The position numbers and the translations under genes are program-made. From assembly GCF_964355755.1 (NCBI RefSeq), contig NC_092670.1:6473001-6537000 (forward strand): a DNA stretch of 64,000 nucleotides. The letters are read 5' to 3'. Positions 37,535 to 63,913 of the stretch are shown here, piece after piece; within the stretch, counting starts at the first letter, position 1, and each line of letters starts with the position of its first letter. This stretch comes from Antedon mediterranea (Eukaryota; Echinodermata; Crinoidea; Comatulida; Antedonidae). Under the pieces are notes generated by a model that had not been told where the DNA came from, did no database searches, and worked only from the letters and a program-made list of their open reading frames with translations.

Positions 37535-40500
37535 GTAAGTGTTTTTTTAAATTAACATTATTACCTATAGTAGGCCTACGGGTAAATTTTTTCCAACATT
37601 ATATTCCAAAATGTTACAAATAGTAACTATAGGCCTAAACTGATTTAATGGCCAATCATAATTAGGCCTCTAACAATTATTAAAAAAAGAAACACCATTG
37701 CTGGGGCTGAGGTGGTACGATTTAGTGAATATGTTGTAATTGTCTGGAAATTTCATTGTAGCAATATTTAAATGTTTAAAAAAGTAAATAAATTGATGTT
37801 CTGGCTAAATGAATTTAAATTTAGAATAATGATGATTGAACGCGGAAAATATCCGATGTCTTTTTCTGATTCCCAAACATGTCATGTCATAGAGAACGAT
37901 TGCATTGTGTTTCTCCCGCCGCCGTGATAATAGGGAGCGGCAGTGTACGACCCACAAAAGTCATCCTTCCCAGGAAACGCTTAGTCGGACAAAACGCGTT
38001 GCCTGTTCAACGGTCCGCGGAAGTTTATTTGTATCCGTATAATCCGATCCGCCGCACTGTAAAGTTCACGCTTGGTTGCGCTTCGCACACTGCCACATTG
38101 CCTGTTTCGAGGGCTCCCTATTAACATGGAAACCTCTAAAATATTGTCATGGAAAATAAAAACTAATTCTAGTTGTTTGGAATGCTTTCATATTTTAAGA
38201 ATAGAAGAATGGTAGCATTGTCAGTGAAAAGCACCTATGCGTCTACATCTTTAAACCGACCACCAGTACCGATGATTCATTATAATATAGTGCAGAGTAC
38301 AAGAATAACAGATCAAGTGGGAATTGTCAATACATTATCGTCAGCTATAAAACGAACGACCGTTCCTGCAGTTCCTGTAGTAGCAGATAATGTAGGAATG
38401 ATAAATGCATCAACATCTTCAGTTCGTTTGATGAATCCTGATAGGTCTATCAATGTTGGTGACTACTTTAGTGTTATAATAGATGCTCGAGACAGCAATG
38501 GTAATAATCGTACAAAAGGAGGCGATTTAATCTTTGCAAATATAAGAAGTAAGAAAGCAAGTACCACTGGAAAGGTAAAAGACTTCAACAATGGAACATA
38601 TGAAGTGATTTTCTTTGCTGGTTGGCAAGGAGTTGTTACTACTGAGATTATTCTAGAACATCCATCAGAGGCAGTAGATTACATCGAACAGGAATTGTGG
38701 CCAATGGAAGAAAGAGCTACGTGGTTAGCTAATTACCAAGTATCTAAAGTCGCGGAAATAAGAAATTGCAGATTTCATGTTGGTGTTTTACTTGATAAAT
38801 GTAATTACAGCCAACCATTGGCAATGGGAAACGCCACTTTCTATTGCGATAAACCAAACCACATATCTTGCGATTCGTTGAGCTGGATTTCAATTGGCCA
38901 AAAAATCATTGTAGCAAAATTTCAGAAAATGTATGGTTATCATCAAACACTTTTTGCTGAGTAAGTATTATATTATCCTTTTTATAAAAACACTTCATAA
39001 CACATAAAGAAGTATCTTAGATTATATCAAAGAATATATATCACAAGAATGAGTATTCCGCGATTTTTGCACGAGAAATTTGTAACAGAGAGCTCCAGTG
39101 AGTGATGCCCGCCCTCATAAGGGCGGATGTATACATACTAAATAAGACTTGATTTAATAGATATTATACATGTCACATTAAATAGAATTATGATAATAGT
39201 TTTTGCAATTGTAAACTATTTTATAATACATATTTATTAACAAACTAGTGTACATTCACTTTTACAGACAATTATTTACTAACATGCTAAGTTAGTTCAC
39301 AAAAAAGGCCTAACACAGCAACACCAAAATCAACGAATCGTTACTCAGCACGGCCTATTCTTTACCATTGCCGTGTACTACTCTACGCCCGGTAAATTAA
39401 GTATTGTTTTTATGATATCAATTAGTATAAAATACATATTATTAATAGGACAAAATGTTAAATGTTATTAACATTTATTTGTTTTACCAGAAACAAGTTA
39501 AATATAGGAATATTATTAAACTATCCTTCGTGAAAACGCGTAAACAGCAACACGCCCGCTCACGCTATCGTAGCGTCCGGTTGATAAAGCAAACTGTTTA
39601 TACGGCAGTTTTTACTAAATAAATTGCATAAAACGAACAATTAAATATCCAAATAGTATTTAACATGATGTTGGCATGTAGTTGATAACATTTTTTATCA
39701 TGAAAATACTCACCGGTGGTCCAGCCTTTGATTAGTGAAACCGTCACAAAAAGTTGTATACATCCCAGATACATCCACACTTATGGCGGCGCCCTACCAC
39801 ATGGACAATATTACTGTTACAGGGAAAATCGCGGATTACTCATTCTTGTGATATATATTCTTTGATTATATGTATAGCCTATTTAATAATGCAATATAAA
39901 TTTGAGAACATTACAGTCACGTGCTTTGTTACTAATAATTTATGGTGCATACGAATACCCAGTTGACTAGTTTCAGTCGCATGAAATTGGCTCCTCACTC
40001 GAAATATTTTAGTATTCATTTATGGAAATTTAAGGAAAAACCAAAATTACCTCTTTTTTATTGGTTGATTCGAAATTCATATTGCATACCAATCCGTCCC
40101 ATTTAGCATCGACGTCTTTCTTATAAGACGTTTGCGAAGTATGGGTTTTACAAGTTAGTTTACGGACAAAAATCGAAACGGCTAATGGAACGTAAACAAG
40201 ACCAACTACCGACTTGGTGAAAATGTAATGATGAGGTGGTACTTTCATATTCGCGACAAACAACCACCCGGAATTTGTCATTATAACCATTACGTCTGAA
40301 TCAGGAACAATAAAAGCACTCCGAGTGTACATACCTCCGCCTATTGTAAAATTCCTGTGCAATTGTCCAATTTCAGTTTACTTTACGTTAAGACTGCTCA
40401 GTACCAGCCAGCTTTTGAAAATGTTTTCCTATCTTTTAACACTAGCAGATCTGAAAATAATAATAAAAAGTGTTCTAGAATTAGGATTCTGCTCTAGACT

Positions 40501-41799
40501 GCCTCCAAAATTTAATGGAGTGGTCCTCGACTACATTGTAGTACAGATCTGGCAATAATTGTAAATTGTAATTTCGCTTTTCCCTGGTTTAATCAAAAGC
40601 TGTTTTAATCGTCAATAATGTGGAACGTTCTGCTTAATATGCAGATGTCCTAACCATTAGACCACTGGGGCTTTCATGGTATTGTCAATACATCCTATTT
40701 TTCTTCTTCAAAACATTTGCACAGTACTTAACAATAAAACATTACTTCCCAATAGGTCTTTAGTAAGCCAACGACTGACCAATACTATAACAATCAACAT
40801 CGGAAATAACGGTAAGTATTGTTTATTTTTGTTTAGGCCTAGGCCTTAAACCATTATCGTTAACCAGATTCATAACTTAAGATAAACGACATTCATTAGC
40901 TGTAAACAACTTGATAGAACAATAGAAAACTATTTATTCGTGGTATATTTGTATATATAATATTTGTTGAAACCTATAATAGAACACATCAATTAATACA
41001 ATATATTATTAATATATAATAATTTTCTATTTCAGGTAAAAAACCAGCGCCAATTTCAAATATTTCATGCACGTCAGATTTGCCAATACATAGTATTAGC
41101 AATGGATACTGGATTGGAAACATCTGGTATTCTTTAAAGTGTAAAACTAAGCAGTGGACAAAACCCGAAATAATGCAATGCATTCAAGGAAAGCACATCA
41201 TATTATTGGGTGATTCCACAACAAGGCAATGGACTGAGGGACTGTTGAAAATAATGGATGTTACAAAAAGCAAATATACGACTAAACCCAATTCTATGCA
41301 CATTCAACATCATAGTGAGAACATGACTCTGGACTTTTATTTTAATCCGTACATGGTTAGCAAAGCTAAAACCGTTTTCAGAGTTGGGAAATGGGAATAC
41401 GAAGTTCTGGACAATCTTAACTTCAGTTCGTGTAATTACGTCATTGTGGCGAGTCCATGGGCTCACTATAGTCAATGGACAAAAAATAGTGTTATTGAAA
41501 GGCTGCAATTGTTGCGAGAAACGCTATTAAGGTTTAAGAAGCGGTGTCCCCACGCGCCAGTAATGGTGAAAACACCGCACCCACGGGAACATGGCACGTG
41601 GGATATATTTTTTAAGAGTAATCGACTCCTTTTAGACATATATAATCTTTATCTAAATATGTTCTCAGGATTAGGTATACATATCATTGACATCTGGGAT
41701 ATGAACGTAGCACACCCTGCAAACTTTATACACATGCCTATGCCAGTTATTTATCAAGAGCTTTATATGATGTTTTCGCATATATGCCCAGTAAATTGA
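37469..41799 (+). CDS. NXPE family-like protein (neurexophilin-like plus PC-esterase-like), copy 2
   Basis: Four coding exons (37469-37534, 38173-38960, 40756-40811, 41036-41799) join in phases 0,2,1 to give 557 codons plus TGA, the same length as copy 1. A basic start (MMKYKR) precedes a hydrophobic helix (TTLFCLIGFVSVVLWV), a predicted type II signal anchor. The neurexophilin-like part carries NPDRSINVGDYFSVIIDARD, FNNGTYEVIFFAGW and HPSEAVDYIEQELWPM. The esterase-like part carries GDSTTRQW (GDS at 362-364, Ser364), SPWAHYSQWTKN, PHPREHG, and DIWDMN...IHMPM near the C-terminus. The counterpart of copy 1 exon 2 was not found; exon 3 here is 81 nt longer at its 5' end and may include it. The exon 3 acceptor (AATTCTAG, 38172) is weak. 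Intron 3 holds a small TIR element. Confidence 0.87.
37879..38124. other. GC-rich block inside NXPE copy 2 intron
   Basis: About 245 bp is clearly richer in G+C and CpG than its surroundings and is open for 81 codons on the + strand without a recognised domain. It may be a repeat insertion, a regulatory element or a fragment of foreign origin. It does not splice convincingly into the NXPE gene. Confidence 0.3.
38173..38960 (+). CDS. NXPE copy 2, exon 3-equivalent (neurexophilin-like domain)
   Basis: In frame from the acceptor AATTCTAG (38172) to the donor GA|GTAAGT. It encodes residues 23-285. Residues from about 95 on align block by block with copy 1 exon 3; the first about 70 are Thr/Ser/Val-rich stem sequence. 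The 5' boundary is the least certain point of the model. Confidence 0.8.
39021..39870. mobile_element. ~850-bp element with ~45-bp terminal inverted repeats
   Basis: The left end (TCAAAGAATATATATCACAA, GAATGAGTATTCCGCGATTT) and right end (AAATCGCGGATTACTCATTC, TTGTGATATATATTCTTTGA) are reverse complements with a single mismatch over about 40 bp. The interior lacks a transposase frame. It lies in the intron between exons 3 and 4 of NXPE copy 2 and is probably a non-autonomous DNA transposon. Confidence 0.75.
40030..40362 (-). other. 110-codon open frame on the opposite strand of an intron
   Basis: An ATG-to-stop frame with one hydrophobic stretch (GLVYVPLAVSIFV) in a slightly GC-richer patch. 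No family is recognised, and it lies antisense within the NXPE copy 2 intron. It could be a fragment of a processed pseudogene or chance. Recorded because the codon composition is less AT-biased than most intron frames. Confidence 0.2.
40615..40690 (-). mobile_element. tRNA-derived SINE fragment (third family), copy 1
   Basis: On the - strand, the series CATGAAAGCCCCAGTGGTCT, AATGGTTAGGACATCTGCAT is shared with 60225-60345 and resembles a tRNA A-box region (GTGGTCTAATGGTTAGGAC). Only the head is visible here. Confidence 0.55.
40756..40811 (+). CDS. NXPE copy 2, exon 4
   Basis: A 56-nt exon between TTCCCAATAG and GTAAGT. It encodes SLVSQRLTNTITINIGNN with split codons on both sides, matching the 59-nt exon of copy 1 with one codon fewer. 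Confidence 0.85.
41036..41799 (+). CDS. NXPE copy 2, exon 5 (PC-esterase-like domain)
   Basis: Acceptor TTCTATTTCAG, stop TGA at 41797. It carries the GDSTTRQW nucleophile motif and the Asp/His-bearing C-terminal block. Very similar to copy 1 exon 5 throughout. Confidence 0.92.
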
Positions 41800-47411: not shown

Positions 47412-47469
47412 ATGTCACCATTATTTTTAACTGTGTTATTTGGATTTGTTAATCTTGTCAATTCACAAA
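47412..47469 (+). CDS. D8C/HYR gene exon 1: signal peptide
   Basis: ATG followed by a hydrophobic stretch ([18 protein letters not shown]) with a plausible cleavage site after VNS. Donor A|GTGAGT, phase 1. Confidence 0.8.
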
Positions 47470-50400
47470 GTGAGTATATTTTTCCTTGTTAGCTTCTACA
47501 CCCGACACTGGTACTGTATTATGTCTACAGACAATAAACTGCGGAAATCTGCAATTTCTATCCTGACTATAACAGGTGGTAGTTGTTAGGGCACCTGTAA
47601 CGCTTGTAACCCGTGTCAATTTCTAGAGAATAATAATAAAATAAATCAATGTTGTTGTCAGTATAACTTACTAAATCATTAAAGGTCTCCCAAAAACATG
47701 AACAAGTTTGCAGTTTTAATAAATTTAATCACTTGCGTAGATAAAAATTCGAAAAAAGTGATTAACTAAGTGGCAACAAATCTGGCTATTTTTTGGTTTA
47801 AATTTCAGTCTTCAGGTAAATATTTTTCCATCAAATATATTAGGCCTATGTGACATTACAATTCCATATTTAACAATACAAAACATTTTTTCAGAAGGAT
47901 AAAATATCCGTATTAAATAAATTATACAATAAACCTCCACTTTACAGTTGAAATATGTAAATCTATAGTTTAAGCGGTTGTATCACCAGCAAAATACATG
48001 TGCAGAATAGTCGGGAGATTTTATTGCTCAAATTGAGTTCCTGAAAGATTTTGAATCCTTAGAACTAGTAGAATTCATTACTCTTACTCTTTACTTACTT
48101 TAATTTAAGCACTATACTACAGTATTATCCAATATAACAACTCTTAACAATAAAGCAACACATAAGCCATTCTTTGTAATACCTATTCATGGAATTCAAT
48201 CAAAAGGTACTGTAGGAGTCTTGTTACTGACGATTAATCATATTTGATACAGTTATTGGCTGCCGATAAAGTATATATAATTTTGTATGAATGAGTGACA
48301 AGTAACAACAAAGAAACTCATCTGTATTTTACATGTGAGCGTGGGTCTGACTGAATGAATGGTACTGACTTGTGCTGACTTTTATTTGAATTATTAAACA
48401 ATGCATTTTGTTTAAATTATTAAACAATGCATTTTGTTTAAATTGTTAAACAATGCATTTTTTTAAATCAAACTATGTTTCTAATGATATACTGTACTTT
48501 GGGTGACTTGGGTCGCTTTTGGATGCTCAATTATGTTATCATCATCTACATGCACGTCCACTATTGGACTTGATTTGAAATAAAATCAGGGGTGTGTTAA
48601 AGCGGGTGTAACATTAGATGCATTGCCTCACATTTAATGGTGGCAACCCTTAAAAGGCGCTACATAATTTCCCCCGATTGATAGTGGTAGTGCATTTTTT
48701 ACGTAAACAGTATGTTTCTAATGGAAATGCTTCATGGAGTGCCTTCAGTTTTAATGTCCTAAATTTGATTTTGCCAAGCATTCGAGATATTATCATTTTA
48801 ACATTCAATTGAGAGTACTACTAGTAATACTAGGCCAATATATTAAATACAATTGTGTATTATAATTACAACTACAGACAATTTTTCCTATGTAAGAGCC
48901 ATGTTTTATTGGAATAAAACGTGTGCACTTGAATTGAATTAAAATTGTATATAATTATTATAATTGTGAATAACTAGATGGTACGCGAGCGAAGCGAGCG
49001 TACCATCTAGGTCGTGCCCACAGATGGTTCTCGAATACATAATATTAATTTCAGCGTTAAAAAACTGACGATTTCAAATGTACAATAATGCAGGACAATA
49101 AGACACTGTGATTTATGTACTCAACTAAAATTATCACCCTGGGAATTACTTCCGAAAGGGAAACTTGTCGCAAAATGAGACCAATTGTTTAAGTCAAATT
49201 TAAACAAACTTAATTTGTGTTTTGTATGTAACATTATGGTTCAGGGATGTTGATATTGGAATATACGGTAGTTAAACAAACAATACTCAATTACGTTACC
49301 ATCTCCATGCATGTCTACGACTTGATTTGAAATAAATTCACGATTGATTTTGCCAAGCATTCGAAATATTATATCATTTCAATTGAGAGTATATATTTGA
49401 TATACTAAATAATACAATTGTGTATTATAATTACAACTACAGAAAATTCATTTTTCCTGTGTAAGAGCCATGTTTCTTTTTTAATGAATCGTGTGCACTT
49501 GAATTGAATTAAAATTGTATATAGTTGTTATAATAATATAATTGTAATGCTTACACATTTTAGTATATTTTGCAATGTATTTATGTGGAGACATTTTTCT
49601 ATTAGAACCAGTCCATGATTTACCTTCTTCTGTCTTCTTTTGTGTATCTTATTAAAATGTTAGGATGGTCCCTGAAAATCATCTAATTGTTTAGAAGGCT
49701 TATTACAAATAGGCAAACCATTAATACATTATTTCACCCAACCACACCTTATTTTAAATAATACTACGTCAATAAATTACACACACTCTTCTCTCCAAAT
49801 GTCTGGTTTTCATTATGAGTAGGAAACAATTTAGAGATTTGAAACTGTTAATTTTTAATTGGTCAATATTTATAAAATGATACAAATATCTCTTTTAAAC
49901 GTAGCATCATGGATGCCAACAACTATTACACCAGATACAACACCATCGACTACAGAGATGTCATCAATTACACCAGGTATATCACCAAGTGATTATTGTT
50001 TTTTCCTTATTAATAGCTTCAATAATCTATCCTAGTAGCAAATTATAGTATATATACAGTAGTTAGTAGCAAATTATAGTATATATACAGTAGTTATTTC
50101 ATTGTGTTTTCATCATTTTGGTTGCCATTTAATAACGGTTTTAAAAATTAAAATTGCATCTAAACGTTGAGATTCATTTAATATTTTTGATTTTATTTAT
50201 GTTCTTAGGTGGTCCATGTGATACTGATCTTGTGCTTACAGAGTGGCAACGTAGTATTCTATATGACCTTGGGTCTGAGTCTCCAATATCTGATGATTTT
50301 ATAATAGATGGCTGGTACAAGCTGAGAAATGAGGGTGATAGGATTGATATTAGAATGCCAACCTCAACACCAGGAAGTTTTAAATGTGGAACTTTATTCC

Positions 50401-53400
50401 CAGTTTGGATTGATGGTTTGTTAACTGACTTTCAAATATTGTTATCCATAACAAACTAAATAAAGATGTAGGCCTATAACTATGTGAAGCACATTTGAGT
50501 ATGTATTAGTATTTATTAAAGAGCGCTATATAAATATAGTAAAATAAATGACAATAATGATTCTTTTATTGAATCAATTCTATAGATACATATCCAGAAC
50601 TTGGAGATCCAATCAAAAGTGTTACTGGCTGCATAGATGTCAATGGAGATCCGTGTGCCCTCACTGTTCCAATTTCCCTTCTTGCTTGTTCAACTGTAAA
50701 CAATGATCTATATTTTGTTCATTATTTCGTTGACACTCCTGGAACCTTAATTGGATATTGTACAGGTAAGAATATATTCATCTGGTTCTGAATATAATTA
50801 ACTGGAAGATTATTGTTTTTTGTTGAACCAAATACATAGACAGTTGTTATAAATATTACGTTTCGTTACTGTCACCTTCTTTAAACTACAGTTTCAAATC
50901 GTATATTAGAAAAGAGATGGAAATATAATCAATATTTTAAAACTACGTTATTTATCACATATTTAATTTGGGAAATGAGAGCCATAGGCTACGATATTAT
51001 GACTAATTTACGTATAGTGCACATTGAAGTTCGTTACGTTTAACCTGCATTTTGTTTACTTTGTACAACACCAGAAATGCTTTATTTTATACTCATCAGC
51101 AGAATATTATATAGTATACACACTACTAATTTGAAACTAGAATTTAATTCGTCACTTTGACGATTTACTGGTGATAATTGTGATAAAAGATAAATTTACC
51201 GACATTATTTAAAAAAACCCACGCAAACGCAACATGCACGTACGTTAATATACGAGCGCAAACAGTTGATGTATGCCATTCTATGACCTGATGCATACGC
51301 TTATTATAGTGCTGAGTTTTGCCTATTATGTGTCATATAGAATAATATATACAGTATATTATAATGCAGTGTAGCATAGGTGAAATTACGGGGCCCACAT
51401 GTTATTAAATGAACATTTCCATTTTCAGATTCTCTTTTACCTTGTGAAACTAACGTGACGTCATCACTTGAGTTCCCACCATGTGGTAAGTTCTACATAC
51501 CCTTTGATAACAGCAACAAAGAAAAATATTGAACAAAAATAGTAAAGCACCTGGCAATGATGATATTAACCAGTATATTATTAAACAACTTATCCTTTTC
51601 ATTTCTGAACCCCTCTGCTACATTTTCAATCTACCGCACTTCTTCAATTAACAAATGAAATTGTCGGGGCTTTCGAGAGGGGTGAATTTGCCAGTGGTAT
51701 TTTCATTGATCTCTCGAAGGCCTTTGATACATTTGATCACGATATTTTATTATATAAGTTACATAATTATGGCCCTGTATATAATTTATTCAAAAGCTAC
51801 CTTTCAAACCGCAAGCAATGCACTAAATTTAAACACACCGTTTCTGATTTTCTTCCTATTATTTGTGGAGTCCCTCAAGGTTCCCTGCTTGGGCCTCTAT
51901 TATTTTTATTATACATAAATGATATCTATAATGCCTCGAATATGTTTTCGTTTCTCTTGTATGCTGATGACACAACCGTAATTTACACTGATAAAAATGT
52001 AGATTCCCTTTTTAAAATATCAACTGAAAATCTACCCAAAATGTTAACATCATTTTTTGCAAACAAACTGTCTGTTAATCTAAAGAAGTGCTGTTGTATG
52101 GTGTTCAAAAATTCACAAATACCACTAAATACCAGTACTTTCAAATTAAAAATGAAAGATCAATTAATACCTATTGTTGAGAAAACTAAATTTCTTTGTG
52201 TTTATCTGGACAGTAAACTAAATTGGAAACATCAGATTACTGAAGTCGAAAACAAAATATCCAAAAGTTCTGGTATCATATATAGATTATTATATTTCAT
52301 CCCTCAAAACATACTCCGCATTCTTTACTGTTCATTAATCCTCTCTTACCTTACTTATTGTAATATTATTTGGGGCAATATCTACCCGTCCTACTTAAAC
52401 AAACTGATCCAAAAGAAAACCGTAAGATACATAGCAAATGCTCCTCCGTATCCCATTCCAATCCTTTATTTTCTTCATTTGGTCTTCTTAAAATGCAGGA
52501 TATTAACCATCTTCAACAAAGTGTTTTTCTTTATTCATGGCTAAACTCGATCCTGCCATCACACTTGATTTATTTAGTTTCAATCTTAATTTTCATAACC
52601 ACAAAACTCGGAGCGCAAATCAAATACGTATTCCTTTTTTTAAAACTACTTCTTTTAAACATACTGTAGCATTAAGTTCACTGGTCCTAAACTCTGGAAT
52701 AGCGTACCAGTTCCTATAAAAAGTGCTTTGTCTAAGAAGAGTTTTTCTTTTAAATTGAAACGACACCTTTTATCCAGTTATGTGTAATTATCCTTTCACT
52801 CATTGTAGTTTTTATATTTAGTTTTTTTCGGTACCCGGAAACTAAAAGTCTTCATTACTGTTTTTGTCTTGTTTCCGGTTCCCGCGTTGTCCTGTTTTCT
52901 TTTTCAGGTTTTATGGGATGCCTTATACAAGCTTCGCTTTTTTGGAATGTTGCCCCTCTTATTTTAATCATATTTACTGTTAATTTTTATATTCTATGAA
53001 AGAGAAGAAGATAAATAAGTGTTACTTTGATTGATTGATTGATTGATTGAGTATCGTGATCTTTGTTTTTCCAACATTACATCCAAATTATCTATACCGG
53101 TAGTTTACAAATATTAATGTATAACATGGTTATAAATATACTGTAATTATGATTCATAATTTGTCTTTCATATTCATTTCTTTTATTCTCAGCATAATAT
53201 AACAAATGGTAACATAATAACAAATTGTATTGTGGTTTTTTGTACACAATGCAAAAAAACATGTTTTCAGTAAGTCATTCAAGTCATTCTTTAAAAGTCA
53301 TTCCGTTTAACAAATTGTTCACAACTCTCTTTATATCAAGATCAATTAAATTGAAATACGAATAATCATTACTTAAGCATAGTGACATGTACTTTTGAGT

Positions 53401-56400
53401 ACAGATATTGAGGCTCCATTTTTTTATAGTAACTTTATCGTTGGTTGATTTTGACATATTATTCTTAGTCATTTCTATGCGCTAGTTATTAACTATCACC
53501 AAAAATTTTTCGAAAAAACAAAAATTTAACTGAAATACAGACGTTTTTTTGTTAAAAAAATAACTTTGACTTCCAGTCAAAGTTTTCAATCAAAACATAT
53601 CCCATAATGAAACGCGCTTGTTTGGCTACTCTGTATGCATAATCATAAAACTTCCCCATGATCTGTGTGAAAATACCTTCTTAACCGTGACGAGTTGTAA
53701 ACAATCATAATTTTAGCATATGCATAATGCGTACTCATGGTTTGAAATCTTTGTTTACTTTCGCTCGTGACGATTTTTCAGATGAAATGTAATCAAACTA
53801 ATTTACCTGTTAATTACGTAAACTTGTTGTTTTTGGCTCAAATTTTCGACTTAAAGTGAATAACTTTAATATTACTTTGATATGGCCACTTTAAATTTAG
53901 AATATTTTGGCCTTCATTTTTTTGTGTTTCAAGGGACAATACATCTTTAATAATGTATTCATAGAATAGAATATACTCATATTTCATAATAACTAAGACT
54001 AGAATACACATTGTTGTCTCAGTTATTAATGAGGACAGTTTTGAACGGTGTTCTTAGAAATTGGAACAATCCAACAACGATATCTCGAATGACTATCCAT
54101 ATATTATTATCAACATTGTTTAGATCAAGAATCTCCAGATATTTTCAATTGCCCAATGGATATGATTGTTTACACAACAACTGGTGAGGCATTTGCAATC
54201 AATGTTACATGGATGGAACCGACAGCTACTGATAACTCTGGAGAGACCCTTATACCAGTAGCAGACTGCACTTCTGGTGATAATATGTTTGTAATTGGTG
54301 ACACAACAGTTCAGTACAATGTCTCAGATTCAGCTGGTAACTTTAATGATAGCTGTAGTTTTGTTGTCACCGTTGAAGGTAAGTGAATGTACTTTCTGGA
54401 AGGAAATTATTACCCATTCAGTCACATGACTTTTATAAGTTCGTTGTTAATATAATCCTTGAAGTACTACTTTTTGGCAGACTTTCTGGCAACATGCCTT
54501 TATGTTATTAACATAACAATTATTCTATATATATATTATATATATTTCTTGTCAAATGTGATCTAGTTTTACCTTTCAAAGGAGAAGCAGGATGTACAAT
54601 AATTTAAAACTCAGTAAATTAGCATTAAAAAGGTAAAACAGTAGATCCCCTATTAAAAGACGCTAAAGACAAATTATGCTGTGTTAATATGAATCTAGGG
54701 TGCGCATCAGAAAGTGACAACGTGCATGAGAGGGACATTGAAGGGACGTTGAACTCTGCCTGTCAATCTGTCGGCAGTTTATAAATATTTTAATGATAAA
54801 TGAATTGGTAATTCATAGAATTATTAAGATGTGAAGTATAGTAAAACTACAGCTAATTACGGACTTGAAATCAACACAAAAAGTGCACATGGTAATCGAA
54901 AACACTTTTAATTCAGAGAGCGCGCGTTGAGCAAATGAAACATATTTTCGCGGGCCGGCATGGTTTATATATCCGGCCATGGCGGTACACAACAGATAAG
55001 GTTGCATAGTTAATACGTGACGTAACAACAACAACAACAATTCTGGAAAGTGATATATCCTATCCTATCCCATCATGGAAGATTAGTGTGCCAAATGTGA
55101 GCACGTACCATTCAGATGTTTCGGATGAAATGCGTACGCGACAAATTTAGTAGCATTAATATATAGAGTATTTAGTTTCTTTGTACTACATACATACTTT
55201 CTGTTTTTGTCTTATTTTCTTTTTAGAGCAGCCTAACATACTTTAAAATGTGTTTTTATATTAGATAATGAACGCCCAATTATTGACTGCCCAACAAATG
55301 TTACTTCAAACAATTACAACCAAACAAGGTTTGGTTTAATAGTTATTAGCAAGGATGAAGGAAATTCACTTGCCACGGTGACCTGGAACCCTCCTGTGAC
55401 AAGTGACAATAGCAATGGAATAGTGACTGTAGTGTCATCACCTTATGAATCAGGTGACATAATACCAAGTGGTGTTCACACAATCACCTTTACAGCAACT
55501 GACCCTACTGGAAATAGTGAGAACTGTGATTTAAGTTTCCGGGTCCAAGGTACAAGGTTTTCAAGAATTTAGTAAATGTAATAATAATAATAATAATTCA
55601 ACATTTATTAGTTTCTATCAATGGTAAAGCAATACAATAAAAAGAGTGGTAATTTATAATGAGACAATACAAAAATACCATTAATAGAGGATCTTGCAAG
55701 AAGAGATTTCTTGTCACGCAAGACCCATAAACAAAAATTAAAAAAATACATTTGTATATAATTATATATAAAATAAAAAGTCATGACAAAGTTTGAAGGT
55801 CTAGTTTGAGTACAATGATAATAAATGTTTTTTACTGTATTTTACAGGAGATTTCATGTTTGTGGCCAACCGTTTTCCTCCAGGAATTTATATGTCAAGT
55901 ATAGGTTCCGGTGATGCCACAGCTTTAACCTTTACTCCAGCAATTCAAAATGTTCAACTAACCAGACCAGTGGCTATTGATTATGATGTCACCACCTCAG
56001 CGCTATACTGGTCTGACATCGGCACGTCTTCAATTGAATATTATTCATTTGTCACAAAACAACACAACGTTTTAGTTTCTTTTGAAACCGGAGGTAAGAG
56101 CAAATTATTATTTTCTATCTAGTAGGATAATTCATTTATAGTGTGGATTCCTTAAAAAAATAGGGTTCCTTACCTAGTTATAATTGGTTAAACTTTAGTT
56201 ATTAGGCTAAAATAGCACAATCAACACATTTATGATTTTGGCCTACTTGTGACCATCAGCAAATTTACAATTGTTATATGATACAGTCTGTTGATTTTGA
56301 TCTTATATTTTTGCTAAAATATTTCCCTAAACTACTCACTACAACGCATAGGCCTGGACGTCTTTGTGTACATCTTCTTTAGTTGTAATAATACAAAACA

Positions 56401-59400
56401 CTCTAGTTCCATACTACATTTATTGTACTAGAGGGTGCTCATGCTTTAGTAAGTTGAGACGATGATTATTGAAATTCTTTGCAATGATAAACATTTATAA
56501 TAGGCATACACAATAAAGAATCTTTATTGATCAGATAGAAAATGTGTTTAAATTCGCAAAATTACGAGACGCTCGACTAACTGTATAATTAGTATTGAAG
56601 TGCTTTGTAACGATGTCCATTTTTTTATAAACTAGAGGCGCGCCCTCTATGAAGTTACTTCATTTACATTTACTTCTGTCATCCACAGATACTGTATGTG
56701 ATTTCCTAGTTTACTGGCAGCCATTTTGGATTTTTCCCACTATCTTTGCAACGAGTGACCTATATTATTATTATGTACCATGTCTAAAATATGTTTCAAT
56801 GGCCATGATTAGGCCTACTCCATGTTTTCCAACTTCGTTTGATTCCTATATGCGATTTCTGCAACCAGAATGATATTCCAGTTTAGACTACTGGCAGCCA
56901 TGTTGGATTTTGGCCACTATCTTAACAACGAATGACCCATGTCATTCAACATGTCTAAAATATGTTTCAATGACCATAAATACTTATGTTTTGATAGTTC
57001 ATTTGCCTATATGCGACTTCTGCAACAAATGAAATGTGATTTTCCAATTTATTGGCGGCCATTTTGGATTTTGCCCGCCATCTTGAAAAATAAATTACGA
57101 CCAGAGTGGCTCCTAGGCAAAAATCAATTGGTAAGTCCCAACGAAGCTCCATGCCAAATTTGGCGCTTTTGTCCACCGTGTAACGATTTCCTCATTTTTT
57201 GTTGTTAAGCCACCTGACTATAACCAATACATTATTTAGTTTAAATCTGGTAAAACGACCAAACACGACACATGACATGGGCCAACGCGCACCCCGGATC
57301 TAACGGCGGTACACCTGTATTCGTTATTTTTTGCAGTATGTTTTCATTTTGCATAAACTTCACGCGTGGCCTGTGAAAAAAGAACAATATGTATGTCATC
57401 GCCAATGGCAAACTTTGGAGGGGAGCAAAAACTCGGAAGTCGCAAAGTGATTATATCAACCCGGAACTCAGTTACCGCGGACGGTTGAAAATCTACCGAT
57501 GAAATCAGACGTTTTCTTTTAAAACCCTTTATAATATCTTCCTAAGAGAGAACAATATCGTAATAGTAAACATTAATGTTATCAACTGTACGTTTCGCGG
57601 TACATCTGAGATAGATAAGAACAAGGTCAGACTGTATGGAGTAAATTTAGTAAAGGTACTGTGAACTCATAGAGCCTTTATATTAATAACGGGTTACGGT
57701 AAGCTACTGAAGTTACCTAGTTAGGCCCTATAGCAAAAGCATGATCTTTGTTACGAATAACGTTCCCTCATTTTATGAATATTGCAGAATTCATGACACT
57801 TATAATGGTCTAATTGAAACCATAGTTGATATACTTCCACAATCCAACTTGCATCAGCGTTTGTGCAAATTGATATTTTACTGTAGGATATTTAGGTTGT
57901 TTTTGTGAAAGGTGCTATTGTTAATTTCCTGGTGAATTTTTTTCTTTTTCTGTTTTGTTTGTTTTGTATAAAGAATATACTATCCGAAATAAAGGAAATG
58001 AATCGATGAATTGTGTTCAACTTTCTAACTATTATGGTCAACATGATCCAACCATTTAAGCTTATAGTCGAACAACACTCCTAGATACTTATTATTAACA
58101 ATCTCTACTTCCTTTCCTTTAACGTATACCGGAACCACAGTCAGCAGACCTATTATTTTTTCGAAAATCAATCCGCATTTCTTTTTATGTAATCGGTAAA
58201 TCGAATAATCTCAGAAAAGTATAGAGAAGAATTGTTAATAATAAGTCTAACCATAGCTGAGTCGTCCGCAGGTGTTATCATTGGAAAACTCGAGGATATT
58301 GACCTAATATCTGACGTGTACTGAGTAAACAAAAAAGGTTCCAATACGGTACCTTGTAAGTTATGTGAATTAAGGTCACTACAGATTGTCTGTGATGTGT
58401 TATTAATAGTGATCTCTGGCCGAACCAGAGTATTAAGTGTATCGTAACTGTTTCTCATGTATATTTTTAGGTAAGTTTATTAAATAATGATTTCCTAATT
58501 TTATTTAATTTAGGCGTGGATGGTTTAGCTATTGATGGAATTGGAAATAAACTTTATTGGACAAGTACTTCAGAAGACAGAATTGAAGTAATAAATTTGG
58601 ATGGAACGGACAGAACAGTTCTTTTTGACATGAAATTGGCTGAGCCACGTGCAATTAAAATAGACAAAGTAAACGAGTATGTAATGGAACTAATAAAAAC
58701 TGGTTCGTTTTGTATCTTGTTTAACTCAACTTGGAGATAAACTGTTTCAATAAAAATTCCACTACGTTCTGAATGTCATAACATAACCATTGTTGTAGAT
58801 GCATCAACACGGCTCATTTACTATTGAAGAATGTTAATGGGTTTCTCTGAATGTCATTAGTGATAAAACATTGACATCTTTCAGTATAAAATAAAATAAA
58901 ATAAAACAACAACAATAGTAGTAAGTAAGTAACAAATAGTATAGATCAACTTAGATCTTCATAAAGTAATTAGTAATTTAATTTGTTAATTATATAAAAA
59001 GATACTTGTATTGGACTGGAAATGAGATGATAGAGCGTGCGAAGCTAAATGACTTGAATGCCACTAGAACCGCCTTGGTGACAGGACTTACACATCCAAA
59101 CGGACTTGTTTTATCAGTTCCAGGTAAGTTATGAGAAACTATACATAATTATTGCATTGAGTCCAAGTGAAAAATTAATTTAAAATATGTTTTCAAGAAC
59201 AATTAATTTAGTAATGGTAATAATAGCAATAGACGATGGTTTAAACTATTTGTTTAAAGATTTTATTTGTGTAAACAGTTTAGTTTAGTTTGAGTAACAG
59301 ACAAACAGAGAGACAAATAGATAGATAGATATTTTGTATAATTATATGCTTGTTGAAAAAAAATACCGAGATACAAACTATTTTGTACAACATGCCACCG

Positions 59401-62400
59401 TTCTATTATTTTCAAGATGGAAAGATGTATTGGTTTTACGGAGGAACAGATAAAATTGAAGAAGCTAATCTTGATGGAACCAGCCGAACAACAATATTAG
59501 ATGTAACTGAACAACACCCGTTTGCTTTCGACATTTATAAAAACTATCTATACTGGTCAGATTGGACTGGAGGTGTGTATAAAGTTAATATAAGGACTGG
59601 AATATCATCAATTCAAAGTAACGATGGCCGACTTAATCTTCCAGAAGGTTTATACATTTTCACTGGTAATACTTGTATTTGATAAATATTTTAAAATAAC
59701 TATTTCCCACTGCAAGTTCCAATATAATAGCATAAAGAGTATATTAAACCGAGTTAAAATATTCTATATTTTGTTCTAAACATTACTCTTTGGACTAAAA
59801 ATACGTTATGAAAATATTTGCTTTGATATTAGGATTGACACCAAGTAATATAAAACTGATATTCTGACTTCAACACTTGCTATAGTTTATGTAGACTACC
59901 TACAGCCACAGATTCTGGTATGAGTATGGGGAGAATGTATAGCCATACTAACCGCATGTGATTTATGTTGATGTTCCGGTTCATAACTTTTGCATCTAAA
60001 CCATATAAAAACAATTGCTATTATTCATTAAAAACGATAAAGGTTAATGGTTAATACTGAATTCAAGCATCTTATTATGTAAATATACCTGTATTTTAAC
60101 TACTTTAAACACCTACTTTTAATTGTCACAAATGTACTTATACTGTATGTATATAATATACCGGTATTCACCAATGAGAATTTAAATAAACGTGAGATGA
60201 ACTCACACAAGACAAAAAAAACCCGATAAAGATGAGGAGATCTGTAAGAATGAGAAAAAGTTGCCACAATCGAGATTCTGAACCTTCTGCGTGATATGCA
60301 GATGTCCTAACCATTATACCATTAGGCTGTCATGGTATTGTTCAAACTCTTTAACACTCTCGGCGGGGTATGGCGGAACTGAATAGTCTATCAAATATAC
60401 GCACGCGCACCAGAGATCAAATTAATACGCCCTCATCTTTTCAGTATTTTTATTCACGAATCGGGATCTCTAAACAGAGGAGGAGGGACTGAGAGATTGG
60501 AATGTTCCATCCATGGACATCCATTAGACAGTATATACCACGATCGGAAAAATACCCTATTTGGTTGGGGCAAATCGTTGAACCTAAATTTGTTTTATTT
60601 GTCAATAACTAATTATCCAACGCGATTTAATTAGTAAACAGGGTTACAACAGGTAGTTAAAATCAGTACCGAAAATACAAACCAACTTTTTATACCATCG
60701 AGTAAAAATTCTAAAAGTAAAGCCTGATTTACCGAATTTTGGCCTTACGTAAATTTAAATATAGATTTATAAAACAACAGGTACAGAACAGAATTCTAAA
60801 CCGCCCAGTGATATACTGAAATTTAATTAATTAATTTTAAAACGATGAAGATGAGAAAATCTATTAGAATGAGAAAAAGTCGCCCCAACTGAGATGTCTT
60901 TGTTACACTCACACACACAAGGCCTCATGCACTTGAAACAAGCCTCTACAATACATTCGAGGGCTCTCAAACTCTCAATCATTCCTTAAAACAATATTGA
61001 CATTTCTAACAGAGTATATTATTAGGATGAAAGGACGTTCCAACCAAGTTTAATGCTGTCAAGAGAAATTTTATTAGTTTTTATTTCTTATGTTCAGTAT
61101 CATAACAATATTGTGATTTCTTTTCTATAGATAATGTATTGACTATTGACTGCCCGACAAACGTCACTTCAGAAAATTATATCGGAGAAGAATTTGGTTT
61201 AATACAAATTACCACAGATGAAGGGAGTCCAACTGCCACAGTCACGTGGGATCCTCCTGTGACAAGTGACAATGGAACAGTGACTGTAGTGTCATCACCA
61301 TATGAGTCAGGTGACATGATACCAATCGGTACTCACGCAATCACCTTTACAGCAATTGGTTCTGCTGGCAATATTGAAACTTGTGACTTTTATATCAAGG
61401 TTGAAGGTAAATATCTGAAAAATTTGTTCAATAATTTATATATTGTATCCTTAAGTGAAAAACACATCAATATGAATAATCTTGCAAACTAAAAACTATA
61501 TACAGTTTAATATATCAAACCATATTTTAATTACATAATGTATGTGGATAATCTCAGTTGTATCTTGTGACCTTACCAACAACTGTCAACTAATTGATTA
61601 ACTGTCAAATATCACCTGCTGACACAATTAAATCTCTTCGCTAATGAGCATTACAATTATGCAAAGCAATTTGGCTTTTGGCGTTTTAAATCCCATCCTA
61701 AGATTAGCGGTCTGTTTATGCTATTTGTGAAAATCATGGTATAATGGGGTTACTCCAATGTAAACATTAATGAGAACACGACCTAAAATATCTAATAGAC
61801 TTCCATTATCTGCCTTTGCTTGTCCAAGTACCTTTTCTATACTTCTTGATTTCATAAACTTGTTATTTTTGCGAAACTTTTAGAAATTAATGAAATATGA
61901 GCACCACTATCAATTAATTCACTGACTTTGTGACCTTCTACATGTACAATAATTTGAGAATTAAAACGTTCTGGAAGACTACTAGAAACATTATCAGAAA
62001 AACTATCAGTAACATCGTCTACTATAAACATCCGTGAGGATTTCAAAAGCGATATTAGTCCCTTCAGAAGCTGAAAATCTAATAATAAAAATTATTCTTG
62101 TTGTATTAATAAATAGATAATGAGGATCCAGTCTTGGTCTGTTCATCTAATATTACAACTACTACAGCAGATGGATCAGATCAAGCAGTCAATGTGAACT
62201 GGACTGACCCAATAGTAAATGACAATTCTGGTGAAGGTATAACACCAACGTCCAAGTACAATTCTGGAAACAATCTATTTAATATTGGCAGCACTGATGT
62301 TATATATGACGCAATTGATAGTTCAGGCAATGCAGCAACATGCACCTTTACAATTACAGTTACTGGTAAGAACATTGTCTCTTCTTTCCCGTTTCTCCTT

Positions 62401-63913
62401 CCTGCTGAAGTATCTTATACTTAATAATATGTTAATTATTGTATAATGCATTTGAACCATGAAGTTCTTCAATCACTGAGTATCATTTATACTATAGATA
62501 ACATTAATTATAATTATTATCTTCATGGTTTAGATTCAGAAAATCCGGATATTATAGATTGTCCAATTGGTATGATTGTTAACACAACAACTGGTGAGGC
62601 TTTTGCAATCAATGTCACATGGATGGAACCGACAGCTACTGATAACTCTGGAGATACTTCTGTACCAGTAGCAGACTACACTTCTGGTGATAATATGTTT
62701 TTAATTGGCATCACAACAGTTCAGTACAATGTCTCAGATTCAGCTGGTAACTTTGATGATAGCTGCAGTTTTGTTATCACTGTTGAAGGTAAGACTGTTT
62801 CATAGAGGAGGAAATGAAATTTGAGTTATAGTTTTTTTAATGTGTTTTTATCAAATTCAATTTTTTTTTGTTTCTGTTAATTTTGTGTAGATAATGAAAG
62901 TCCATTGATTGACTGCCCGACAAATGTCACTTCAAACAATTACATCGGAGAAAGGTATGGACTAAATGTCAGCACAGATATAGGAAGTCCAAATGCTACT
63001 GTCACCTGGAATCCTCCTGAGACAAGTGACAATAGTGGTGGACTTGTTACTGTAATGTCGTCATCTTTTGAGTCTGGTAACATGATACCATATGGTACTA
63101 ACACAATCACTTTTACAGCAACTGATCCTTATGGCAATATTGACACCTGTGACTTTGGCCTCAATGTTGAAGGTAAAATATAAACCTCTTTGTAATTTTG
63201 ATAATTTACAAAATACAGGAATTATAATAGTTTTAAACAACGTTATGAGCATATTATAAGATTTACCTTCAACACACAACACAAAAAAGAATATATTTTT
63301 TATTGCATAAGTAAATCCAAGTAATTACTAACTGATGATTAATTCTTTGGCTTTTATACAAATTTTAAATCTTTACTGATGAACCCATAGTCATTTTCAT
63401 CAATAATTGTTCACTAAATTTGAAGCGCACTATAATTGTAATAACTACCATTATTATTACTTTGCATATATGTAACGGCTTGTTTATTATCTGTTTATAT
63501 GGTAAGTTTGAGAAAATAAATATATACTGTATCAAAATGTTATTTCGCAACCAGGAATCGACTATTACGTGGAAGATAGGAGATTTTTGTTCCATTCTAC
63601 CATTAAAAATGTGTAATATGATTATAACATTAGTCATTATTGTTTCTTCCTTTTGTATTTTTAGATAATGAGGATCCAGTCTTAGTTTGTCCACCTGATA
63701 TTACAACTACTACTGCAGATGGTTCAAATCAAGCACTCAATGTCAGCTGGACTGATCCAATAGTAATTGACAATTCTGATGAAGATATAACACCATGGTT
63801 CAATCACATTCCTGGGAATAATGAATTCGATATTGGTAGAACTGATGTTATATATGATGCAGTTGACAGTTCAGGCAATGCAGGAACATGTACCTTTACA
63901 GTTACTGTTAATG
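47412..63913 (+). CDS. Secreted D8C/HYR/YWTD modular protein, 3' end outside window
   Basis: Sixteen exons join in frame: 47412-47469, 49905-49976, 50209-50415, 50586-50765, 51429-51485, 54124-54378, 55265-55549, 55848-56093, 58514-58676, 59002-59123, 59417-59665, 61131-61406, 62117-62365, 62534-62788, 62891-63172 and 63665-63913. Together they are 3205 nt, over 1068 residues. All junctions are phase 1 except 58676/59002 (phase 2). Order: signal peptide, Thr/Pro linker, D8C domain, HYR-A, HYR-B, YWTD propeller segment, HYR-B, HYR-C, HYR-A, HYR-B, HYR-C. HYR modules are Ig-like adhesion domains named from sea-urchin hyalin; D8C is the cysteine-rich domain of uromodulin/GP2. An extracellular matrix or cell-surface role is inferred. 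No stop codon is reached. The last phase-1 donor shows the gene continues. Confidence 0.88.
47470..49904. repeat. Intron 1 with duplicated segment and palindrome
   Basis: A segment at about 48768-48955 is repeated at 49345-49540; shared words are GATTTTGCCAAGCATTCGA, TACAATTGTGTATTATAATT, AGAGCCATGTTT and TGTGCACTTGAATTGAATTA. Three tandem copies of AACAATGCATTTTGTTTAAA lie at 48395-48463. A hairpin with 12-bp arms (CTAGATGGTACG) lies at 48974-49010. Confidence 0.6.
49905..49976 (+). CDS. D8C/HYR gene exon 2: Thr/Pro linker
   Basis: A 72-nt phase 1-1 exon encoding a Thr/Ser/Pro-rich linker ([19 protein letters not shown]), likely O-glycosylated. Acceptor AAACGTAG, donor G|GTATAT. Confidence 0.7.
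50209..50415 (+). CDS. D8C/HYR gene exon 3: D8C domain, N-terminal half
   Basis: Encodes [14 protein letters not shown], then [17 protein letters not shown] and the hallmark [10 protein letters not shown]. The donor (G|GTTTGT) is weak, but phase and D8C continuity (W-x-x-T-x-P across the junction) require it. Confidence 0.78.
50586..50765 (+). CDS. D8C/HYR gene exon 4: D8C domain, C-terminal half
   Basis: Encodes [20 protein letters not shown], then three further cysteines including [14 protein letters not shown] and LIGYC, consistent with a D8C disulphide core. Acceptor TTCTATAG, donor G|GTAAGA. Confidence 0.8.
51429..51485 (+). CDS. D8C/HYR gene exon 5: end of D8C region
   Basis: A 57-nt phase 1-1 exon encoding [19 protein letters not shown], with two cysteines that may close the D8C domain. 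Acceptor CATTTTCAG, donor G|GTAAGT. Confidence 0.75.
51528..53045 (+). pseudogene. Degenerate non-LTR reverse transcriptase in intron 5
   Basis: Frames at 51528-51930 and 51942-52544, plus shifted pieces to about 52780, together read as a CR1/L2/Jockey-type reverse transcriptase. Landmarks are [39 protein letters not shown] and [11 protein letters not shown] (active-site YADD). Frameshifts separate the pieces. The 3' end is (GATT)n at 53025-53045. It has no role in the host protein. Confidence 0.8.
54124..54378 (+). CDS. D8C/HYR gene exon 6: HYR module type A
   Basis: A 255-nt phase 1-1 exon. HYR hallmarks: FNCP at the start, [14 protein letters not shown], then [15 protein letters not shown] and CSFVVTVEG. 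Nearly identical in protein to exon 14 (62534-62788). Confidence 0.92.
54379..55264. other. Intron 6, nothing recognised
   Basis: 886 bp, AT-rich with short TA runs near 54524. No repeat or gene supported. Confidence 0.4.
55265..55549 (+). CDS. D8C/HYR gene exon 7: HYR module type B
   Basis: A 285-nt phase 1-1 exon. Carries [45 protein letters not shown] and CDLSFRVQG. Same type as exons 12 and 15. Donor G|GTACAA is weaker than the others. Confidence 0.9.
55848..56093 (+). CDS. D8C/HYR gene exon 8: first YWTD repeats
   Basis: Encodes [34 protein letters not shown] and a β-strand-rich remainder, the start of an LDL-receptor class B (YWTD) propeller. Acceptor TATTTTACAG, donor G|GTAAGA. Confidence 0.85.
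56094..58513. repeat. Intron 8 with ~170-bp tandem repeat and LINE fragment
   Basis: 56690-57200 holds three diverged units anchored by CTGGCAGCC or TTGGCGGCC at 56714, 56890 and 57052. They share CATTTTGGATTTT, AACATGTCTAAAATATGTTT and TATATGCGA. An antisense LINE fragment is at 58000-58460. Confidence 0.65.
58000..58460 (-). pseudogene. Antisense non-LTR reverse transcriptase fragment
   Basis: The - strand reads [20 protein letters not shown], an ADDSAM active-site remnant (preceded by Pro rather than the usual Phe/Tyr), [17 protein letters not shown], and further on [16 protein letters not shown]. These are the palm/thumb landmarks of a Jockey/CR1-type element. Substituted motif residues show it is inactive. 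Confidence 0.75.
58514..58676 (+). CDS. D8C/HYR gene exon 9: YWTD repeat
   Basis: [36 protein letters not shown] and ARAIKID-type spacing (here PRAIKIDK) match one YWTD blade. Donor GA|GTATGT, phase 2, the only non-phase-1 junction. Confidence 0.85.
59002..59123 (+). CDS. D8C/HYR gene exon 10: YWTD repeat
   Basis: [18 protein letters not shown], then [11 protein letters not shown], is a further blade. Acceptor ATATAAAAAG is purine-rich and weak, but frame and domain continuity support it. Donor G|GTAAGT. Confidence 0.78.
59417..59665 (+). CDS. D8C/HYR gene exon 11: last YWTD repeats
   Basis: [20 protein letters not shown], then [20 protein letters not shown] and [10 protein letters not shown] complete the propeller segment. 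Five YWTD-like motifs are visible in exons 8-11 against the usual five to six. Donor G|GTAATA. Confidence 0.85.
60225..60345 (-). mobile_element. tRNA-derived SINE fragment (third family), copy 2
   Basis: On the - strand, ATGACAGCCTAATGGTATAA, TGGTTAGGACATCTGC resembles an A box and AGGTTCAGAATCTC a B box with one extra base. The head is shared with 40615-40690. No intact cloverleaf. Confidence 0.6.
60515..60665. repeat. Inverted copy of the 8155-8315 dispersed repeat
   Basis: GGACATCCATTAGACAGTAT, CACGATCGGAAAAATACCCT and AGTAAACAGGGTTACAACAG mirror the earlier copy with about one mismatch every 6-8 bases. Confidence 0.6.
61131..61406 (+). CDS. D8C/HYR gene exon 12: HYR module type B
   Basis: A 276-nt phase 1-1 exon with [54 protein letters not shown] and CDFYIKVEG. 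It lacks a few codons after the NSG position relative to exons 7 and 15. Confidence 0.9.
61740..62065 (-). pseudogene. LTR-retrotransposon aspartic protease remnant in intron 12
   Basis: The - strand contains a retropepsin-like active-site motif (LIDSGA) followed, after a frameshift, by a segment ending in an LGRV...VYIG-type block, the usual layout of a Gag-Pol protease. No reverse transcriptase or LTR was found around it. The remnant is short and broken. Confidence 0.6.
62117..62365 (+). CDS. D8C/HYR gene exon 13: HYR module type C
   Basis: A 249-nt phase 1-1 exon with [52 protein letters not shown] and CTFTITVTG. Nearly identical in type to exon 16. Confidence 0.92.
62534..62788 (+). CDS. 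D8C/HYR gene exon 14: HYR module type A
   Basis: A 255-nt phase 1-1 exon, same length as exon 6. Carries [47 protein letters not shown] and CSFVITVEG; only about a dozen residues differ from exon 6. Confidence 0.92.
62891..63172 (+). CDS. D8C/HYR gene exon 15: HYR module type B
   Basis: A 282-nt phase 1-1 exon with [54 protein letters not shown] and CDFGLNVEG. Confidence 0.92.
63665..63913 (+). CDS. D8C/HYR gene exon 16: HYR module type C
   Basis: A 249-nt phase 1-1 exon with [52 protein letters not shown] and CTFTVTVNG. Donor G|GTAAGC; the gene continues past the window edge. Confidence 0.92.

Follow-up and report, generated by a model that had tools for sequence, protein, structure and literature searches.

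HYR exon cassettes and a YWTD propeller at the start of a very large predicted adhesion receptor gene in the crinoid Antedon mediterranea

In a stretch of 64,000 nucleotides (nt) from the crinoid Antedon mediterranea, hereafter the window (C1:6473001-6537000 of the 354-Mb genome, C1 being the window's own contig), 16 exons on the plus strand appear to be the N-terminal ninth of one very large predicted adhesion G protein-coupled receptor (GPCR) gene, a reading to which we assign a probability of about 0.86. The 16 exons have AG/GT borders and form one open frame of 1,068 amino acids (aa), in the order signal peptide, Ser/Thr-rich linker, three-exon D8C domain and A-B-[P1-P4]-B-C-A-B-C, where A, B and C are three types of HYR exon and P1-P4 are the four exons of a YWTD propeller. 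The remainder of the gene was found in a further 69 kb that was also read to the right of the window.

Anatomy of the predicted receptor gene

The gene model spans C1:6520412-6599911 on the plus strand, its right end corresponding to window-relative position 126911, and comprises 121 exons, 28,836 nt and 9,611 aa, with zero internal stops. All internal exon borders are AG/GT, and the HYR exons are of phase 1-1 in 98 out of 98 cases. The signal peptide, Ser/Thr linker and D8C are followed by HYR A-B, the YWTD propeller, HYR B-C, eight ABC triplets with a last A, a 54-exon HYR repeat of the form DE(FGHI)1-2JK and 15 mostly unique HYR exons, after which come EGF, Ig, SEA, GAIN/GPS, the seven-transmembrane (7TM) region and a tail. 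HYR domains account for 8,222 of the 9,611 residues.

The receptor part begins after the last HYR exon with an EGF exon (C1:6591370-6591504), an Ig exon (6591816-6592082) and a two-exon SEA domain (6592778-6593393). Two exons of unclear kind (X1 and X2), three GAIN exons, a GPS exon (C1:6596860-6597024) and four 7TM exons ending at 6599911 follow. A Pfam scan of the 3' exons, joined by hand into a draft, gave scores above the respective cut-offs for EGF (29/21.5), Ig_3 (30.1/30), SEA (28.5/26.4), GPS (52.1/22.5) and 7tm_2 (109.4/20.6; E 2.3e-31). The stretch from GAIN to the seventh transmembrane segment aligns with residues 16-552 of 552 (537 residues) of ADGRG6 at 7.4e-61, the next matches being ADGRG2, ADGRG4, ADGRL3 and others; the presence of GAIN is indicated by one alignment that spans GAIN, GPS and 7TM of the ADGRG6 and ADGRG2 chains. 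Cleavage at GPS takes place at a triad H-L/I-S/T, and in the GPS of this gene the site HL↓TNFAILM is intact, so that the predicted cut would divide the protein into an N-terminal fragment of 9,260 aa and a C-terminal one of 351 aa. The sequence TNFAILM can be recognized as a tethered agonist by comparison with the consensus TxFAVLM given in the accessible text of PMC12716839. Judged by sequence, the gene thus combines the features of class B2 adhesion GPCRs: 7tm_2, a GPS with HL↓T, GAIN before GPS and a tethered agonist.

The modules of the N-terminal part were identified as follows. HYR (PF02494) scores above the Pfam cut-off in all seven HYR exons of the window; Pfam scans covered the window exons and the 3' part, and the 91 HYR exons between them were detected with a profile built in this analysis. 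The propeller, of about 260 aa, is matched by Ldl_recept_b (PF00058) at 80.2 bits against a cut-off of 21, with two stretches passing singly, and shows a near whole-domain sequence match to the propellers of LRP2, LRP4, LRP6, LDLR and nidogen. With exon phases 1-1, 1-2, 2-1 and 1-1, the propeller block is symmetric overall. The D8C segment (exons D8a-D8c, with eight cysteines as counted by eye) matches solved chains of GP2 and uromodulin in the PDB at E values from 5.5e-10 to 4.5e-7 (GP2 5.5e-10, uromodulin 3.6e-7).

Several observations speak against the gene model as drawn. Splice signals were the basis for placing the GAIN exons, X1 and X2 by hand, and no Pfam model for GAIN was reported at E <= 0.05 in the 3' part. 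At the opposite end, D8C_UMOD (PF23283) reaches 21.3 bits, below its cut-off of 27. Furthermore, the open frame alone is no proof of one transcript, because every HYR exon is of phase 1-1 and shorter chains would also be in frame.

Since chains of phase 1-1 exons join by default, the model could in principle be an artefact of uniform phase that fuses two neighbouring genes, one coding for a secreted matrix protein with D8C, HYR and YWTD and the other for an adhesion GPCR that carries the later HYR exons, a reading that we consider unlikely. In its favour, no GPS exon is listed on the same strand within 70 kb downstream for 29 of 37 propellers found in the genome and for 32 of 59 hand-picked HYR places (a count using 129 of 139 GPS rows, with ten near-identical copies at C7:2.3 Mb left out), so that HYR or propeller proteins can exist without 7TM; a propeller followed by D8C at C1:5.90 Mb is another such place. 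However, the introns of the model have a median of 287 nt and a maximum of 3,051 nt, and no clearly intergenic-sized gap therefore separates its parts. Moreover, in the stretches read, significant DNA matches to the signal-peptide exon occur only at the gene start, in the copy at C1:7.25 Mb and at two points beyond the stop codon (2.8 and 3.5 kb away), with none in the HYR array, and each of the four D8C domains of the tandem cluster described below has a GPS exon before the next D8C (once two GPS exons). On these grounds we infer a single transcript for the whole adhesion receptor gene.

Growth of the HYR array and origin of the propeller

The original prediction, made from the window alone, described a three-type HYR cassette repeated around a propeller. 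This observation is confirmed: the limits given for the cassette region (54124-63913) are exact to the base, coinciding with the start of A1 and the end of C2, and its seven HYR exons, all of phase 1-1, fall into three types by length (A 255/255, B 285/276/282 and C 249/249 nt, B thus ranging over 276-285) and stand in the order A, B, four-exon propeller, B, C, A, B, C. The adhesion GPCR context was missed at that time because the receptor exons lie outside the window. In a tree of 117 exons, including exons right of the window, A, B and C form separate clades with support of 100/99, 100/97 and 99/98, again as anticipated; the tree holds 117 of 123 HYR exons, the other six containing a stop or being shorter than 70 aa, and has few columns.

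Single-linkage clustering at 60% identity resolves the 98 HYR domains into ABBC(ABC)x8 A (29 exons), 54 exons in DE(FGHI)JK blocks and 15 further exons. FGHI is doubled in the later of these blocks, and the last 15 exons consist of fourteen single types and one further C-type. The ABC cassette is therefore one of two higher-order repeats within the gene. ABC triplets extend to C1:6550308, and the final HYR exon starts at C1:6590734. Directly after the last A of the ABC array lies a dead B-type HYR exon with a stop (C1:6550569-6550628).

The succession of types is also regular at the level of the genome. Among 145 A/B/C neighbour steps within 2.5 kb, 118 are AB, BC or CA, compared with a mean of 47 and a maximum of 63 after shuffling of the labels (0 of 2000 shuffles reached the observed value); this count drew on 80 A rows scoring 117 bits or more, 79 B rows (82 bits or more, with one known partial included) and 43 C rows (99 bits or more, with one partial included). 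Genome-wide numbers of HYR, A, B, C and propeller exons are lower bounds, as scoring was confined to the best candidates.

Seven of the eight ABC units of the gene were aligned (u4, with its 3-kb intron, was omitted). Intron identity is 94-97% within two classes and 74-84% between them, and the introns of unit u8 are 89-91% identical to those of their own class. Among units of one class, intron and exon similarity are about equal, which implies recent duplication of whole genomic blocks; the proposal that the exon triplet is the unit of duplication thus holds, introns included. The intron classes mostly alternate, suggesting that blocks of two triplets were duplicated together. The array grew through the duplication of whole exon blocks, with unequal exchange as the probable route, and such events are harmless to the reading frame because all HYR exons are of phase 1-1.

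The B exons next to the propeller have a different history from those of the array. In all six loci of the window subfamily, the propeller has a B as its nearest A/B/C exon on either side (at 6.86-6.90 Mb, where there are two propellers, the 3' B was taken from the genome search, which left the few kb before it uncovered). In the 117-exon tree, the 5' B exons of the six loci form one clade (100/96) and three 3' B exons another (100/99), and in a tree of 33 rows fourteen array B exons form a third clade that excludes both propeller flanks (98/96). The 3' flank of the window gene (B_post) groups with old B exons of the copies at 7.25 Mb and on C8 in the 117-row tree (97/86), a grouping that the 33-row tree leaves open.

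Other loci show parts of this arrangement. In the copies at C1:7.25 Mb and C8:18.67 Mb, the propeller core is accompanied by a single C exon and not by a triplet array, and a locus at C3:27.72 Mb, which lacks both C and propeller, is made mainly of A-B dimers. At C1:14288783-14301727 (14.29 Mb) lies an ABC triplet array whose sequence is close to that of the array in the window gene, with no propeller, D8C or GPS match among the matches listed there. The simplest history is that A-B arrays came first, the propeller was then placed between two B exons, and ABC expansion followed later in some copies; alternatively, triplets were lost from the copies that do not have them.

The original prediction had instead proposed that the propeller entered a triplet between a B and its C, or that a B exon was duplicated around it. 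Entry into an existing triplet is contradicted by the B-[P]-B copies without arrays and by the flanks lying outside the array-B clade, and was rejected as a candidate on the basis of these copies and trees. Considered together, insertion into a triplet and duplication of a B around the propeller at insertion are improbable: the exon order A-B-[P]-B-C would suit them, B_pre and B_post as one clade is not rejected by the approximately unbiased (AU) test (p 0.228), which makes an old local duplication of B possible, and the triplet-free copies could have lost their triplets. However, B-[P]-B occurs without a triplet array at C1:7.25 Mb and on C8, neither flanking B falls inside the array-B clade (98/96), and blastn at E 1e-3 detected no similarity between array segments and the introns adjoining the propeller (B1-P1 and P4-B2). 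Overall, the earlier interpretation is partly supported.

A locus at C3:13793501-13808500 (13.80 Mb) contains a YWTD propeller, a CUB-like exon (by eye) and four nearly identical 291-nt B-like HYR exons, which form a distant outgroup of 29 B exons; the best tree sets B_post beside this outgroup, without support (33/0). The order at this locus suggests, as one possibility, that the propeller was captured together with a downstream B-like HYR exon.

A tandem receptor family and its selection pattern

The region C1:6.52-7.30 Mb holds 8 GPS exons and 8 close last-7TM exons, marking eight tandem receptors. Genome-wide, 14 close last-7TM exons including that of this gene were found (61-100% identity, the next match being at 43%), and those of the tandem paralogues are 61-97% identical to that of this gene. 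As judged by position, the paralogues vary in array composition, propeller number (0, 1 or 2) and D8C. For example, the copy at 6.84-6.92 Mb has two propellers (C1:6863537-6898253), each between B exons, with the two 5' B exons identical in protein. In the 6.706 Mb copy, D8C comes about 110 nt after an HYR A exon with splice signals present, and may thus be internal. The next tandem gene may begin with the signal-peptide-exon-like DNA that lies 2.8 and 3.5 kb beyond the stop codon of the window gene.

The P4 exon of the propeller occurs nearly whole at 37 or more places in the genome (three shorter P4 matches were omitted, and the C8 copy has no P4). At 8 of the 37, five belonging to the window subfamily and three on C9, a GPS exon is listed on the same strand within 70 kb downstream, whereas random placing would give 0.5 on average and gave no more than 4 in any of 500 draws, the placing having assumed 30 Mb for some contigs. 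At C1:5904690-5909154 (5.90 Mb, minus strand) the order is reversed, with the YWTD propeller followed by D8C; there is no HYR within the 10 kb read and no listed GPS within 70 kb downstream. As this order and that at C3:13.80 Mb differ, D8C, YWTD and HYR have been combined in more than one order in this genome. Another tandem GPS array is found at C7:2285068-2320980, where eleven GPS matches, ten of them equal-scoring, lie 2.9-5.7 kb apart; it is possibly very recent.

Summed over 5 to 11 exons, dN/dS between the window gene and three copies is 0.67-0.75, which does not indicate strong constraint, and the individual modules differ. D8C is conserved (omega 0.17, p < 0.0001, four copies), as is HYR A1 (omega 0.47, p 0.0097, five copies); A1, B1 and B2 taken together give an omega of 0.54 (p 0.0038). 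For the four propeller exons, by contrast, model M2a beats M1a (p 0.0019), with about an eighth of the codons at omega 6.8. P1 alone has an omega of 5.7 (p 0.002) and P1+P3 of 7.75, values to be discounted, as these partitions were picked after a first look at dN/dS; the M1a/M2a test was made on all four exons. This contrast suggests, as a lead and not as proof, diversification in part of the propeller against conservation of D8C, and it singles out the propeller as the candidate for specific binding.

Other values temper this suggestion. The omega of the propeller between the six copies is 1.38, not different from 1 (p 0.217), and that of P2+P4 is 0.61 (p 0.119). Taken alone, HYR B1 (0.5, p 0.088, six copies) and B2 (0.68, p 0.42, three copies) do not differ from 1 either. 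In addition, the propeller test compares six paralogues with few synonymous changes and possible sequence exchange or gene conversion.

The same data bear on whether the array might be a decaying or non-expressed relic of a segmental duplication. The dead B exon, the C8 copy without P4 and with truncated exons, a retroelement-like open reading frame (ORF; by eye) in the intron before A1 and the summed dN/dS would all agree with such a relic, which is nevertheless very improbable, given 121 exons without a stop and the purifying selection on D8C and on the combined HYR exons.

The exons of the gene that fall within the window are collected in Table 1. The ORF that precedes A1, in the intron after the last D8C exon (51942-52544, by eye), is reverse-transcriptase-like, and another such ORF lies upstream of the gene at window positions 23061-24182 (RVT_1, 59.5 bits). 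The window also contains an NXPE-like gene at 38173-38964 and 41080-41799, its upstream ORF matching Neurexophilin (PF06312) at 50.5 bits and its downstream ORF NXPE4_C (PF24536) at 144 bits; by eye, a pair of ORFs at 21884-22648 and 26440-27195 resembles a second copy of it.

Table 1. Exons of the predicted adhesion receptor gene within the window (window-relative positions).
Feature	Position	Strand	Remarks
Exon 1, start codon and signal peptide (19 residues)	47412..47469	+	phase out 1; similar DNA (73 bp, 85% identity) 1.2 kb upstream of D8C in the C1:7.25 Mb copy
Exon 2, Ser/Thr-rich linker	49905..49976	+	phase 1-1
D8C exon 1	50209..50415	+	phase 1-1; omega 0.17 (D8a+D8b, four copies)
D8C exon 2	50586..50765	+	phase 1-1
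D8C exon 3, last two of eight cysteines	51429..51485	+	phase 1-1; homologous exon present in copies
HYR type A (A1), 255 nt	54124..54378	+	phase 1-1
HYR type B, 5' propeller flank (B_pre), 285 nt	55265..55549	+	phase 1-1; clade with 5' flanks of the other five propellers, 100/96
YWTD propeller exon P1	55848..56093	+	phase 1-1; omega 5.7 between copies
YWTD propeller exon P2	58514..58676	+	phase 1-2
YWTD propeller exon P3	59002..59123	+	phase 2-1
YWTD propeller exon P4	59417..59665	+	phase 1-1
HYR type B, 3' propeller flank (B_post), 276 nt	61131..61406	+	phase 1-1; clade with 3' flanks in the 6.73 and 7.28 Mb copies, 100/99
HYR type C (C1 exon), 249 nt	62117..62365	+	phase 1-1; sister to C at C1:6731362 in copy 2, 100/92
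HYR type A (A2), 255 nt	62534..62788	+	opens the recent ABC array (unit u1)
HYR type B (B3), 282 nt	62891..63172	+	unit u1, recent ABC array
HYR type C (C2), 249 nt	63665..63913	+	unit u1; gene runs on right of the window

Possible mode of action and comparison with known systems

Adhesion GPCRs are thought to sense force by means of a tethered agonist and the long N-terminal fragment that precedes it. In the predicted receptor, the N-terminal fragment consists almost wholly of HYR domains, which multiply in frame-safe exon blocks, and the roughly 98 HYR domains would form an extensible tether holding a head of D8C and propeller far from the cell. An Ig-like domain is about 4 nm long, and at that length per domain a chain of 98 HYR would measure some 0.4 micrometre when stretched. 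The D8C-propeller head would bind a partner in the matrix or on a cell surface, and the receptor would be cut at HL↓T in the GPS. According to the accessible parts of PMC13197933 and PMC12716839, in adhesion GPCRs in general GAIN cleaves the receptor at the GPS, and the tethered agonist is bared once the N-terminal fragment is lost. In the present receptor, a pull on the tether would then remove the N-terminal fragment, expose the agonist TNFAILM and activate the 7TM region.

It is conceivable, though still doubtful, that the giant adhesion GPCRs of the cluster are a tandem family specific to this lineage, whose expandable HYR rope, varying in length by unequal exchange, and fast-diversifying propeller beside a constrained D8C make up a force-read recognition receptor. 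If so, such a receptor might serve, for example, in allorecognition, immunity or matrix contact, and the window member would rank with the longest GPCRs predicted so far. Because the tandem paralogues vary tether and head over a similar receptor base, tuning of activation by tether length is directly testable. No adhesion GPCR with D8C, HYR and YWTD is among the matches listed in the literature on HYR/hyalin repeats, D8C, LDL-receptor architectures, adhesion GPCRs and echinoderms. HYR in choanoflagellate adhesion GPCRs may be on record, as 'HYR domain' and 'hyalin repeat' are indexed once each in PMC12716839, although neither was found in its readable text.

Each part of the predicted receptor resembles a known protein and departs from it in context. 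The D8C is like that of uromodulin and GP2 in sequence and cysteine pattern. In those proteins D8C is accompanied by EGF and ZP domains, whereas a ZP domain was not reported in the scanned parts of this gene (window exons and 3' exons). The propeller differs in setting from those of LDLR, LRPs and nidogen in that it is flanked on both sides by HYR exons, without an EGF exon directly after it. In hyalin, a secreted matrix protein of echinoderm embryos, and in other HYR proteins, the HYR domain forms tandem arrays as it does here, but here the array is part of a predicted 7TM receptor.

Among adhesion GPCRs, the GAIN-GPS-7TM part is alike nearly throughout to that of ADGRG6 (GPR126) and other ADGRG members. 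SEA precedes GAIN in this gene, as it does in GPR126. ADGRG6 carries CUB and pentraxin modules, which were not seen in the 3' exons of this gene, and it is not known to have D8C, an HYR array or a YWTD propeller. In its accessible text, PMC13197933 calls V1 the largest adhesion GPCR, with the largest extracellular region. The 7TM region described here is far nearer to ADGRG6 than to the ADGRV1 chain (3.1e-13), and identity with ADGRV1 was rejected, the array being HYR (by Pfam in the window exons and by the profile built in this analysis in the 91 exons to the right) and the best match of the 7TM region being ADGRG6. ADGRV1 (VLGR1) has Calx-beta repeats and is about 6,300 aa long. Like it, the predicted receptor is a giant adhesion GPCR whose N-terminal fragment bears a long array of a single repeated module, but in place of the Calx-beta array it has 98 HYR domains, and with its 9,611 aa it may exceed this largest vertebrate adhesion receptor in length.

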